A stretch of DNA of 64,000 bases from Desemzia incerta (GTDB lineage: Bacteria > Bacillota > Bacilli > Lactobacillales > Carnobacteriaceae): contig NZ_FOXW01000001.1 in assembly GCF_900115825.1 (NCBI RefSeq), forward strand, positions 434,001 to 498,000, in the 5' to 3' direction. The notes under the pieces are model-generated. The model did not search any database, was not told the origin of the DNA, and saw only the letters and a list, made by a program, of their open reading frames with translations. The translations under genes were made by a program, and so were the position numbers. The first letter of the stretch is position 1, and every line of letters starts with the position of its first letter. Positions 1 to 40,697 of the stretch are shown in pieces.

Positions 1-396
1 TTCCATATAAGTTGGAACAACTAAACCAATTTTTGCGCCTTCTAAGTTAGGACCTAAGTCAACCATTTGGTCGCCATATCTTTCAAATTGTGCTCCATGA
101 GTTCCTGGTAACCATGCTGCTACCATTCCATCAGCTTCACCAGTTGCTACTGCTTCCCACATGATGGCATTATCTAATTGAGTTAATTCAACGTCATAAC
201 CTAAATCTTCTAGTACTTTACCAATAACGTTTGTTGAAGCAATCTCAGTATCCCATGCAACATAAGATAACTCGATTTCTTCACCTTTTCCTACAGTATC
301 TTCTTTAGACGCGTCATCTGATGAACAAGCTGCTAATACAAGAGTTGTAGCTAATGCAGCTGTTAAACCTGTTTTTTTCCAATTGAATTTTGACAA
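1..396 (-). CDS. opuAC: Glycine betaine ABC transporter substrate-binding lipoprotein (partial, runs off the left edge)
   Basis: The reading frame is open from the window edge to a TTG start preceded by an AAGGAGAG ribosome site; 132 codons are visible. The N-terminus is a lipoprotein signal: a few lysines, an Ala/Leu/Thr-rich core, then a lipobox (LAAC) at about residue 23 and a Ser/Asp/Lys-rich linker. The mature part opens with a strand ending in VAWDTEIAST and continues with GEADGMVAAWLPGTH, typical of OpuAC/ProX proteins that bind betaine in a Trp-lined pocket. It should deliver glycine betaine to the permease encoded upstream. It is the last gene of the minus-strand order ATPase, permease, binding protein, but 350 bp with hairpin repeats lie between it and the permease gene. 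The C-terminal two thirds are outside the window. Confidence 0.88.
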   Translation of the reverse strand, partial: MSKFNWKKTGLTAALATTLVLAACSSDDASKEDTVGKGEEIELSYVAWDTEIASTNVIGKVLEDLGYDVELTQLDNAIMWEAVATGEADGMVAAWLPGTHGAQFERYGDQMVDLGPNLEGAKIGLVVPTYME

Positions 397-446: not shown

Positions 447-743
447 TTTTAAACGAGTTGCAAAAGGCTAAACGCCTTTCTCCACTCTCTGCTTCTGAAA
501 CGCGTTGCGCAAGGCAGACTACACGCTTATAAGCCGGATTCGACCTGTTAGGAAAAACACCTAACTGGTCGACCCCTTCTGATAAGCGGTAGCCTAAACG
601 CCTTGCTCCACGCTCTTATTTTAAAACGAGTTCCGAAAAGCAGCCTATGTGCCTATAAGCCAATTTCAACTGCCAGGTAAAGTACACCTGTCTGCTGAAA
701 TTTTCTTATAGTCAATAGGCTAAACGCTTTTCTCCACTCTCTG
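447..743. repeat. Hairpin repeat array 1 (one short and two long units)
   Basis: Three units stand in tandem: a short one at about 447-492 and long ones at about 496-616 and 618-743. Each opens with an AAACGAG/AAACGCG box and ends with TAAACG, a stem arm, and TCCACTCTCT or TCCACGCTCT. Each long unit folds into one long interrupted hairpin. In the second unit the pairs are GCAAGGC/GCCTTGC, CTAC/GTAG, GCTTAT/ATAAGC, TCGACC/GGTCGA and GTTAGG/CCTAAC. In the third they are GAAAAGC/GCTTTTC, CCTAT/ATAGG, CTATAAG/CTTATAG, AATTTCA/TGAAATT and CAGGT/ACCTG. The stems differ in sequence but keep pairing. The short unit has only the outer stem (AAAGGC/GCCTTT around TAAAC). The array fills the gap between opuAB and opuAC. 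Confidence 0.85.
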
Positions 744-746
744 CTC

Positions 747-1586
747 TTACTTAGTGAATTTTTGTGTTAGGCGGTCGATGATGATGGCTAGGATAACTAG
801 AGCTAGTCCTGAGACGAAGCCTGTTCCTACTTGTGCTCTTTGTAGTGAAGATAATACTTGGGAACCAAGTCCTGGAGCACCGATCATTGAGGCAATAACA
901 ACCATTGATAAAGCTAACATAACGGTTTGGTTGATACCGGCCATAATCGTTGATTTAGCAAGTGGTAATTCAACTTTAAATAGTTTTTGTGACCCTGTAC
1001 TACCAAATGAGTCAGCAGCTTCCACTAATTCTTCCGAAACTTGACGAATTCCTAGGTTTGTAAAACGCACAGTAGGTGGTAGTGCGAAGATGACTGAAGC
1101 GAAAACTCCGGGCACCATACCGATTCCGAAGAATGCTACTGCGGGAATCAAGTATACAAAGGCCGGCATTGTTTGCATAAAGTCAAGAATAGGGGTAACG
1201 ATTGTGTTTGCCCACTTGCTTTTAGCCATTAGAATTCCTAGTGGCACACCGATAATCACGGAAACCAAACTAGATACAATGACTAAGGTGATCGTACTCA
1301 TCAAATCATCCCAAAGACCTTGGTTCTGAACATAAAATAAACCTACAATTGAAAAGGCAGCTAATCCGAATTTTTTACCGGATGCAAAGAAACAGATTGC
1401 AGCTATCAGAACGATGAATAATAGGGGAGGGACAAGTAATAGTAGATCAGTTAAACCTTCCATTACGATTTCACTGAATGACTGAACAAAATCAAATATC
1501 GGTTCCAACACATCAGTGATCCAATCCATAAAGTTTTCAATATTTTCTGCTACTGGTAATTTGGGTATATTATCTAAAAAATCCAT
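747..1586 (-). CDS. opuAB: Glycine betaine ABC transporter permease
   Basis: A 279-residue integral membrane protein of the ProW/OpuAB family, the channel of the betaine importer. The start chosen is the ATG giving MDFLDNIP, which follows a GAGGTG ribosome site and lies one base past the stop of the ATPase gene; the longer frame lacks this support. Hydrophobic segments occur at about residues 45-80 and again from 95 to 270. The inner-membrane-component motif that docks on the ATPase is visible around EAADSFGSTGSQKLFKVELP (about residues 190-209). The permease is not fused to the binding protein, unlike the OpuABC fusion of Lactococcus; the arrangement is that of Bacillus OpuA. The gene is probably translationally coupled to opuAA. 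Confidence 0.92.
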   Translation of the reverse strand: MDFLDNIPKLPVAENIENFMDWITDVLEPIFDFVQSFSEIVMEGLTDLLLLVPPLLFIVLIAAICFFASGKKFGLAAFSIVGLFYVQNQGLWDDLMSTITLVIVSSLVSVIIGVPLGILMAKSKWANTIVTPILDFMQTMPAFVYLIPAVAFFGIGMVPGVFASVIFALPPTVRFTNLGIRQVSEELVEAADSFGSTGSQKLFKVELPLAKSTIMAGINQTVMLALSMVVIASMIGAPGLGSQVLSSLQRAQVGTGFVSGLALVILAIIIDRLTQKFTK

Positions 1587-1587
1587 A

Positions 1588-2778
1588 TTATAAAGACACC
1601 TCACTATCTTTGGCAAGTGCACCAAGAACTAAACTACGAACAATGATACCGACTAATTTTCCATCTTCGACAACGGCTACTGGTGTAGAAGCATCGTGGA
1701 TGACTTCAAAAATGTCATTGATCAATGTATCTTTTTGTACAGTCGGAATATCTGTACGTAGAATGTTATCAAAGTTCTTTTCATGGTTCTTAACTGCACG
1801 AGCAGTATCGCTATCTGTAACATATCCATATAGTTTTCGGCTGTCATCTATGACAAGCATATTTGACAAACCTTCTTGCTCCATACGTCTTAAAGCTACG
1901 TTCGGACCATCTTTCCCTATTTTCAGAGTAGTAGGGCGGTCCATGATGTTTTCTGCTGTCAATACTCTAGAACGATCAACATCTTCGACGAATTTCTCAA
2001 CGTAATCGTTGGCTGGGTTGGTTAAAATTTCTTCCCCAGTACCGATTTGCATGATTTCGCCATCTTTCATCAAAGCGATATGATTCCCGATGCGCAATGC
2101 TTCGTTTAAATCATGTGTGATGAAAATAATCGTTTTATTCATTTTTTCTTGCATGTCTAATAATTCATCCTGCATTTCACGACGAATCAATGGGTCCAAT
2201 GCTGAGAATGCTTCATCCATTAACAGAATTTCAGGATCGTTAGCTAAAGCACGAGCTAGCCCAACACGTTGTTGCATTCCACCTGAAAGTTGACTTGGAT
2301 ATTGGTCTTTATAAGCAAGTAGACCAGCGTTATCTAAGGCTTTTTCTGCACGTTCGCGACGTTCAGCTTTCGCCATACCTTGGATCTCTAAACCATACTC
2401 TGTATTTTCCAAAATTGTTTTTTGCGGGAATAAACCGAAGTTTTGGAATACCATACTCATTTCTTTTCTTCGTACATTACGCAAATCTTCTTTTCCCATT
2501 TTTGAAACATTTTTTCCATCAATAAAGATATTTCCTTGAGAAGGTTCAATCAATCGGTTCAATAAGCGAACCAAAGTTGATTTACCACTCCCAGAAAGCC
2601 CCATGATGACAAATATTTCTCCCTGTTCAACAGAAAAACTAGCATTGTTGACACCAACAGTTGCACCAGTTCTTTCAAGAATCTCAGATTTTTTCTTACC
2701 TTCATTAGCTAGCTTTAAAGCTTGTTCTTCTTTTTTACCAAATACTTTTGACAAGTTTTCAACAGTTACTTTAGGCAA
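1588..2778 (-). CDS. opuAA: Glycine betaine ABC transporter ATP-binding subunit with tandem CBS domains
   Basis: A 396-residue ATPase. The start is taken as the TTG giving (M)[13 protein letters not shown], seven bases after an AAGGAG; the frame extends further upstream, but without a ribosome site and into sequence unlike the family. Walker A (GLSGSGKST) lies near residue 60, the signature ([15 protein letters not shown]) near 165 and Walker B ([13 protein letters not shown]) near 185. Residues from about 275 to the end form two CBS modules ([12 protein letters not shown] and [23 protein letters not shown]). In Lactococcus OpuA these modules sense ionic strength and gate transport, so the same osmotic control is likely here. 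The gene is first in the opuA order. A 13-of-14 match to a cre site lies about 180 bp upstream. Confidence 0.93.
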
Positions 2779-39182: not shown

Positions 39183-39395
39183 ATACGAAAGATATTGATA
39201 TACGATTTTTGTGTTTTACGCGGCAAGTTTATTCACACTGGAGTAGCTATGGGGCTACAAGGATGTATTAGAGGTTAGGGAATACATTGTATAAATTGAA
39301 ATATTGAAAATGAGTAATAGTTTAGTCAGCCTTAAAATATTGAATATTGATTAGTTAGATAGCCTTCTCTTAAATAGAGAAGGCTATCGTTCATT
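39183..39395 (+). ncRNA. Candidate untranslated RNA, not recognised
   Basis: The stretch behind the promoter at 39148-39176 has no reading frame of note. It contains GTAGC/GCTAC (about 39247-39264) and ends in a perfect 12-bp stem (GATAGCCTTCTC/GAGAAGGCTATC, 39358-39388), followed by the weak T-run GTTCATTTT. A second hairpin, AAAAGCACCG/CGGTGCTTTT, lies at 39403-39434 just before the repeat array. The long outer pairing of 6S RNA was not apparent. Expression is unproven. Confidence 0.35.
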
Positions 39396-39434: not shown

Positions 39435-39724
39435 AAAATGTGAAGGAACTCTGGACGCCCTGTTCCACTCTCTGGTTTTAAACGAGTTGCTCGAGGCAGC
39501 TTACACGTCTATAAGCCGAATTCGACCTGTTAGGAAAAGCACCTAACTGTTCGAATCCTTCTTATATCCGGTAAGCTAAACGCCTCGATCCACTCTCTGG
39601 TTTTAAAACGCGCTGCACAAAGCAGTTTACACTGCCATAAGAGCCATAAGAATAGTAGGTAAAAAGCACCTAATTTTCTTATGGCTCTTATGTTCGGTAA
39701 ACTAAACGCTTTGTTTCACGCTCT
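39431..39724. repeat. Hairpin repeat array 2 (one degenerate short and two long units)
   Basis: This has the same make-up as the array at 447-743: a short unit (39431-39474), then long units at about 39476-39599 and 39600-39724. The first long unit pairs CGAGGC/GCCTCG, CTTAC/GTAAG, TATAAG/CTTATA, ATTCGA/TCGAAT and GTTAGG/CCTAAC. The second pairs ACAAAGC/GCTTTGT, TTTAC/GTAAA, an uninterrupted 16-bp CATAAGAGCCATAAGA with TCTTATGGCTCTTATG, and TAGGT/ACCTA. Units share the TTTTAAAACG opening, the loop (G/T)AAAAnGCACCT, CTAAACG and TCCACTCTCTGG. The array ends against the 3' end of the split tRNA gene. Confidence 0.85.
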
Positions 39725-39762
39725 ACGGTCCTAGAGAGGTTCGAACTCCCGACCTAACGTTT

Positions 39763-40574
39763 ATACTGATAGGTAACGTTCTTCTGCAACATGACTTGCT
39801 CAGAATACTTGTTTTCCCCCAGTCCACACCTTGCAGGCGACTTTCATCGCACAAGGCGTTCCATCAATCAGAATTTCGTTGAAGAGAGAAGAACTCTTAT
39901 GAATGTAAAACACATCTCATTTGCGCAAAGGAAAAATGAATCTATGATACTGGAAATAAATGCATTATGCTTCAACGAAATACTCAACTGACTAGCCATC
40001 TTCCCTCCGCTGGTTGTTATCCCAGGTTCCTCGGTACTACACAGCTGCTGCCGCAACTATTCAACAGCCATTATCCTGCTGTTTAGAACCCTCAAATAGG
40101 AGTTGACAGTTCCTAGTTGCTTCCAACGTTCCGTTATTACTAGCTTTGCCATTAAACTTAGGTGCTTTCTATAAATGTTTCAGCGTTTTTGATCCACAAC
40201 CATTCAATCAAAAACTATTAAGGTCAAATCCTTAATAACAGTTTGTGTTTTCCTAGACAGTCCACCGTGCTTTAATTCATCGAGTGAAGAAACATCCGTA
40301 CGTTCGAAAGTTCGTCAGTGTCAAAACACATTCTCACCTTATTTAATTTATAGCCCTCCGACTACTGGGCAGATGCTTTTCGCCGACTTTACCGAACTTT
40401 TGACAATACCCAACTATTTTTAAGTCTTGCCAATCGGAGATCAAGGTATTTCTCAAGCGGTTGACTTGAGTGTGCTTTTTTCATTTTGCACAATATCGTA
40501 ATAACAGTTAAGCCAAGCGGCTCTTACTTTTTATAAACTTTTTCAAGTTTACTTTGTAGTAAAACGTTGCGTAC
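39763..40574 (-). mobile_element. ORF-less group II intron in tRNA-Arg(CCU)
   Basis: The insert is 812 nt on the minus strand and falls between anticodon position 36 and position 37. It starts GTACG (consensus GUGYG) and ends AT (consensus AY). A branch-point-like A lies eight nt from the 3' end. Domain V is at 39859-39826, exactly 34 nt: lower stem ACGCCTTGT/GCAAGGTGT, a two-nt CT bulge, and GCGAT-GAAA-GTCGC at the top; the catalytic triad reads CGC. AGGAAA at 40254-40249 can act as EBS1 for the exon's TTTCCT (IBS1), and the T before it can pair with the first 3' exon base. Several hairpins fill domains I-IV. No reading frame of reverse transcriptase or maturase size exists, so mobility and perhaps splicing depend on a protein from elsewhere. 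Boundaries could shift by one or two bases. Confidence 0.8.
39826..39859 (-). other. Group II intron domain V
   Basis: 34-nt hairpin: nine-pair lower stem with CGC triad, two-nt bulge on the 3' side, five-pair upper stem and GAAA tetraloop. The upper part is the same as in the yeast and organellar-type sequence (GCGATGAAAGTCGC). Confidence 0.85.
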
Positions 40575-40697
40575 AGGAAACGTTTGCTCTATCCAACTGA
40601 GCTATAGGACCACATGGATAAAATTATTTTCTCATGATTCTAAAAAGTTGTCTAGTGATTTTGAGAGAATTATGATGTCAGTCCATTTTACCTTCAC

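Follow-up and report, generated by a model that had tools for sequence, protein, structure and literature searches.

The hairpin repeat between the opuAB-like and opuAC-like genes of Desemzia incerta looks like an undescribed mobile element of gene 3' ends that has relatives across the lactic acid bacteria and is not specific to this operon. A single 119-nt architecture can be recognised in Desemzia, Secundilactobacillus and further Lactobacillales families, where it is located at the stop codons of housekeeping genes, with copy numbers reaching one hundred or more in a genome. It is missing from Rfam, as searches of Rfam 15 at gathering and relaxed thresholds returned solely unrelated or chance matches to the element and no family; absence from Rfam alone does not imply that it is undescribed in the literature. 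The element offers a second independent system, beside the REPs of E. coli, for the effects of stop-proximal hairpins on termination and mRNA decay.

Two arrays in the analysed window

The window is the whole stretch of DNA that was analysed, 64,000 nt of contig NZ_FOXW01000001.1. An earlier note had proposed a modular, structured and dispersed repeat inside the opuA operon, in the gap between opuAB and opuAC, and this was borne out. The opuA array occupies positions 451-742 of the minus strand, which is the transcribed strand of opuAA-opuAB-opuAC, and the short-long-long modules claimed for it correspond to one 40-nt short unit and two 119-nt long units. The features of the window are as follows (CM, match to the covariance model):

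1..396, minus strand: opuAC-like binding-protein gene, start of the ORF, downstream of the array (ORF, TTG start)
451..490, minus strand: short unit of the opuA array, 40 nt (CM 44.0 bits, and sequence)
498..616, minus strand: long unit 2 of the opuA array, 119 nt (CM 117.6 bits)
624..742, minus strand: long unit 1 of the opuA array, 119 nt, transcribed first (CM 113.3 bits)
747..1625, minus strand: opuAB-like permease gene, upstream of the array (ORF)
39452..39473, minus strand: 5' half-unit AGAGAGTGGAACAGGGCGTCCA beside the second array (sequence and tail scan)
39480..39598, minus strand: long unit 2 of the second array (CM 125.6 bits)
39606..39724, minus strand: long unit 1 of the second array (CM 111.3 bits)

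The permease ORF is called opuAB-like from operon order and sequence resemblance. Long unit 1 of the opuA array has its 5' end 4 nt past the opuAB stop codon, the start-to-start spacing of the two long units is 126 nt, and the inner hairpin of long unit 2 is of the class GTCGACCAGTTAGG...CCTAACAGGTCGA. On the transcribed strand of this array neither a promoter nor a terminator was found. The second array follows a tRNA-Arg(CCT) gene, beginning 2 nt past its 3' end, with the tRNA taken as its joined exons, and the half-unit beside it stops at the position of the bulge described below.

The tRNA-Arg(CCT) gene itself (39727-40611, minus strand) has its anticodon loop interrupted by a group II intron of ~812 nt (39763-40574). 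Joining of the exons, ...TTTCCT + AAACGTT..., yields the tRNA, and the intron is kept in the sister species (86%). Near the second array and this split gene we also observed a match to the Rfam small RNA BsrC (62.3 bits, 39213-39300, minus strand).

Unit architecture and covariation

The unit is a quasi-palindrome of 117-121 nt with the conserved end boxes AGAGMGYGGAG ... GCARCKCGTTT and an interior in which a 4-5 nt GTTTA bulge and a 3x3 internal loop are conserved while the paired arms vary freely. In unit numbering helix H1 pairs 4-7 with 112-115 and H2 pairs 11-17 with 102-108, followed by the GTTT(A) bulge and by H3, H4, H5 and H6 at 22-30, 33-38, 41-48 and 52-57, respectively. The four or five stems per long unit that had been described are thus present as ordered helices, not as separate stems but within one long imperfect hairpin. 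The short unit consists of the terminal boxes and H2 alone, its inner part being missing, so that GTTTA forms the hairpin loop.

The covariance model was built from 25 seed units, and alignments with slid partners served as controls. The earlier claim that paired bases change together between units was supported: in the seed alignment 88.8% of the cells were paired and the covariation score was 0.60, far above the 0.10-0.19 of the slid controls. For 115 matches from the sister genome 93.4% of the cells were standard pairs (score 0.69 vs 0.07-0.12 slid), and for matches mainly from other genera 91.9% were paired, with a covariation score of 0.88. The seed alignment is the fairer test, since the later alignments were fitted to the model, and it agrees with them. 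The flanking boxes AAACG(A/C)G and TCCAC(T/G)CTCT were found as proposed, with (A/C) pairing with (T/G) in all 25 seed units (C-G 14, A-U 11, 0 exceptions). Terminal inverted repeats, a criterion for MITEs, are likewise present, AGAGMGY pairing with RCKC-G-TYT in 99.4% of the helix 1 cells of the seed.

Copy number and distribution

BLAST of the opuA array against its own genome gave 37 matches and the covariance model 51 (E < 0.01). Neither of the outcomes that the earlier note had named as refuting its reading, a restriction to two loci or absent covariation, was observed. The sister Desemzia species has at least 93 model matches, and together the two genomes hold 96 arrays with 163 non-redundant units, which occur singly or in tandem with linkers of 2-7 nt, mostly as arrays of 1-3 and at maximum 6 units.

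An exact 23-base pattern was found in Desemzia, Levilactobacillus koreensis and two Secundilactobacillus species, and the model matched 16 times in L. koreensis, 124 times in S. paracollinoides and 100 times in S. similis. Matches at 1e-5 were present in 43 of 295 genomes of a Lactobacillales sample, where several arrays have a period of ~120 nt; a class-level sample had matches in 8 of 200 genomes, the own genome being one of these 8. Weak matches in other orders have the bulge in common and lie two to a genome, as pairs, so the superfamily may extend beyond Lactobacillales. Plasmid and phage records gave zero matches to the element.

Several variants were observed. At one Lactobacillales locus (L078, 1501-2095) five units stand in tandem with a period of exactly 120 nt, and at Secundilactobacillus loci L063 and L181-L200 GTTT is immediately followed by an extra short motif that is conserved and reads approximately CGGC...GCCA(G)AA. 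A subfamily starting AGAGYGGGAMAAAA comprises loci L022 and L100-L105 of the own genome and L129, L130, L147, L150, L151, L155 and L158 of the sister; its 3' tails are genome-specific (ACGAAACCAATATTCGTAAA in the own genome, AAAAGCACCCGCTTAGTATGTGACA in the sister), and its distance to the stop is often 14-40 nt, another gene ending ~60-110 nt further on.

Placement at stop codons

The arrays lie in sense orientation, their 5' end being at or next to the stop codon of the upstream gene. Across both Desemzia genomes, 43 of 96 arrays start in the interval from -3 to +6 nt relative to the stop of an upstream gene on the same strand. Sliding the arrays within their own spacers gave an expectation of 6.4 ± 2.3 for this interval, compared to 42 observed among 81 usable arrays. 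The commonest offsets are -2, where the AG of the element completes a TAG, and -1; elements often contribute the last one or two bases of the upstream stop codon, and TAG stops account for 19 of 43 at arrays vs 23 of 115 elsewhere. For more than a third of the arrays the recognised stop is more than 6 nt away or none was found, and a few genes run into the element and terminate inside it, e.g. in both species a gene for a thiolase. Convergent genes do not stop within 40 nt past an array 3' end, with the exception of one overlapping ORF call. Of 69 arrays from other genera, 39 fall within -30 to +15 of an upstream stop and 1 on the opposite side; the elements there have different ends, such as AGGATG or GAAAAGCGG, yet the same stop placement.

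The upstream genes, whose names were assigned by eye from sequence, include guaB, metK, tyrS, dnaJ, recR, nusG, metG, pyrG, lpd, infB, glpK and rnc. In both Desemzia species an element lies inside the infB-rbfA operon, and hence it is not a plain terminator.

Turnover between sister species

For 21 of 23 loci of the own genome the flank was located in the sister genome, and 13 of these 21 carry arrays there too; from the numbers of arrays and genes we estimate that only a few percent would be shared by chance. Orthologous units were found at just two shared loci, opuA (identity 0.92) and tyrS (0.85), while the units at the remaining shared sites are near background identity (0.63 ± 0.07). At opuA, long unit 1 has a 92% identical ortholog at the same site of the sister, and the place of long unit 2 is taken by an unrelated unit (0.62-0.71 identity; background 0.63). 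At infB each species has one unit with similar ends and a different inner hairpin. Between the two species the gene sites persist, with most of their units replaced.

Other sites are filled in the own genome and empty in the sister, most clearly the tRNA-Arg site, as well as those at dnaJ, metK, guaB and lpd, and no target-site duplication was clearly recognised at such pairs of empty and filled sites. A 5' fragment of another unit, often broken near the bulge, trails 46 of 96 arrays, some of these fragments being chance matches. The motif CGTTTA is repeated at the bulge and at the 3' end, and many tail half-units break there, often directly behind the bulge; since other breakpoints lie further inward or before the bulge, precise excision of a cassette is not established. 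From these patterns we infer that units spread via insertion at gene 3' ends and are swapped, or grow, inside existing arrays.

Pairing at the RNA or the DNA level

As it lies between a stop codon and the next gene or terminator, the element should be transcribed. On the sense strand of the Desemzia units G-U mispairs (202) are nearly balanced by A-C mispairs (157), unlike in RNA under selection; across genera the numbers are 125 and 42, and in a tRNA control, which is biased because ARAGORN demands pairs, 50 and 0. Pairing kept for RNA would be expected to give a large excess of G-U over A-C on this strand. Of the two options in the earlier note, selection for structure or hairpin-dependent copying, neither is singled out by the covariation; the near balance in Desemzia tilts the evidence somewhat towards a process that acts on DNA or symmetrically on both strands, and with pairing nearly strand-symmetric covariation alone is no proof of RNA function. 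The sense strand folds better than the antisense strand in 119 of 154 units, by a slight margin (-54.4 vs -51.5 kcal/mol), the difference being mostly not due to G-U pairs. We conclude that DNA-level processes account for much of the covariation; an RNA function of the element is likely, though unproven.

Possible function and mobilisation

We explain the arrays, with moderate confidence, as a mobile REP-like hairpin family at gene 3' ends that is transcribed and, for the gene upstream, probably alters termination or the decay of its mRNA. The cotranscribed hairpin, beginning at the stop codon, would be within reach of the terminating ribosome and, by analogy to stop-proximal REPs of E. coli, might slow termination and shield the mRNA 3' end from exonucleases. 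At opuA and infB-rbfA it would uncouple the downstream cistron from the upstream one. Against a translational role stands the array adjoining a tRNA gene, a site at which translation is not involved.

The same tRNA array fits a selfish or neutral element, which we consider a rather unlikely but serious alternative. Here the insertion machinery would target gene 3' ends or stop-like sequence, purifying selection would purge other insertions, and pairing would be kept by a folded single-strand transposition substrate together with quasi-palindrome template switching, with no benefit to the host. The nearly strand-symmetric mispairs, the use of the element's AG to rebuild stop codons at the -2 and -1 placements, the frequent 3'-truncated tail units and swapping, and the high copy number in Secundilactobacillus all agree with it. 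It does not readily account for the strongly sense-only orientation with its peak at the stop, and not throughout the 3' UTR, for sites kept between species despite sequence turnover, or for the better fold of the sense strand in 119 of 154 units, although the latter arises mostly not via G-U.

The array may possibly boost the opuAC message, as the earlier note proposed. That raising it relative to the permease is an opuA-specific function is very unlikely: the array does separate opuAB and opuAC in both Desemzia species, with unit 1 orthologous there, but the element also follows dozens of unrelated genes, and nothing opuA-specific was found. Because the identical family equally follows infB, metG, tyrS, recR, nusG, dnaJ, glpK, a tRNA gene and many others, a link to osmoprotectant uptake is not supported. 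Transcription terminators or attenuators amplified as repeats would account for strong hairpins right behind stop codons, yet a T4 run follows the last unit in just 12 of 79 arrays, a distinct terminator-like hairpin stands further downstream in 30 of 79, arrays lie within operons (infB-rbfA, opuA), and the opuA array lacks a terminator on the transcribed strand; we regard this as the most improbable of the readings. The arrays accordingly fail the definition of an intrinsic terminator, a GC stem directly followed by a T run. Integron attC sites, which share the post-gene position and a covarying stem, were set aside on host context, the hosts being scattered chromosomal housekeeping genes.

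The element also poses the question by which activity units are inserted and exchanged at the ends of genes, an IS200-type transposase being absent. The Y1 transposase was ruled out as mobiliser, as PF01797 is absent from the own and the sister genome while control genomes were positive. The few RVT_1 proteins of both genomes show no link to the elements, and reverse transcriptase was rejected as well; within these two families no mobilising enzyme was found. Separately, a reverse-transcriptase-like gene of the own genome (G000:C17:118987-119609) is apparently broken by a frame change, and the sister has an uninterrupted RVT_1 gene. A speculative and improbable extension is an order-wide system of long-lived docking sites at the stop codons of genes, into which hairpin modules would be swapped as cassettes, perhaps at the repeated CGTTTA, by an enzyme recognising the conserved bulge and internal loop.

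Comparison with known systems

REPs are 20-40 bp long, carry a GTAG or CGTC tag and are often associated with IS200/IS605-type Y1 transposases. The units described here differ in having 117-121 nt, in starting with AGAG with no GTAG or CGTC tag noted, and, unlike REP/RAYT systems, in the absence of a PF01797 protein from either Desemzia genome. They resemble the REP/BIME/REPIN repeats of Gammaproteobacteria, which are dispersed palindromes, many just past stop codons. The ends of these repeats can supply TAG, GTAG REPs providing TAG stops (PMC3733652). REPs less than 16 nt from a stop codon lower translation (Liang 2015, as reported in PMC12306157). By analogy the element would work most like stop-proximal REPs, yet it fails REP membership.

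Elements of similar architecture occur in several Lactobacillales families. EFAR/Efa of Enterococcus faecalis is reportedly palindromic, 42-650 bp long and made of variable modules (Venditti 2007). The EFAR structure comprises two stem-loops of about 170 bp. Efa elements are found close to the 3' ends of CDSs and could stabilise mRNA (PMC1590033), and EFAR figures among the MITEs (PMC3733652). Both EFAR/Efa and the element, compared by description only, are palindromic, modular and near gene 3' ends, and EFAR may be the likeliest prior description of a cousin.

The proposed likeness to the BOX repeats of Streptococcus pneumoniae holds for modularity, as both form stem-loops in modular tandem repeats, and not for organisation: BOX has distinct end modules, boxA and boxC, flanking boxB repeats, unlike the element, in which every full unit has both terminal boxes. 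In the available part of PMC3049150, BOX is described as modular tandem stem-loop repeats, transcribed and enriched downstream of genes, and that part makes no mention of a fixed register relative to the stop codon such as the element shows. The LPSM supermotifs, reported to be specific to Lactobacillus plantarum, are likewise large repeats between genes of a lactobacillus that are transcribed and cruciform-like (Wels 2009, cited in PMC5643018), and differ from the 119-nt unit of the element in their length of 800-1000 nt.
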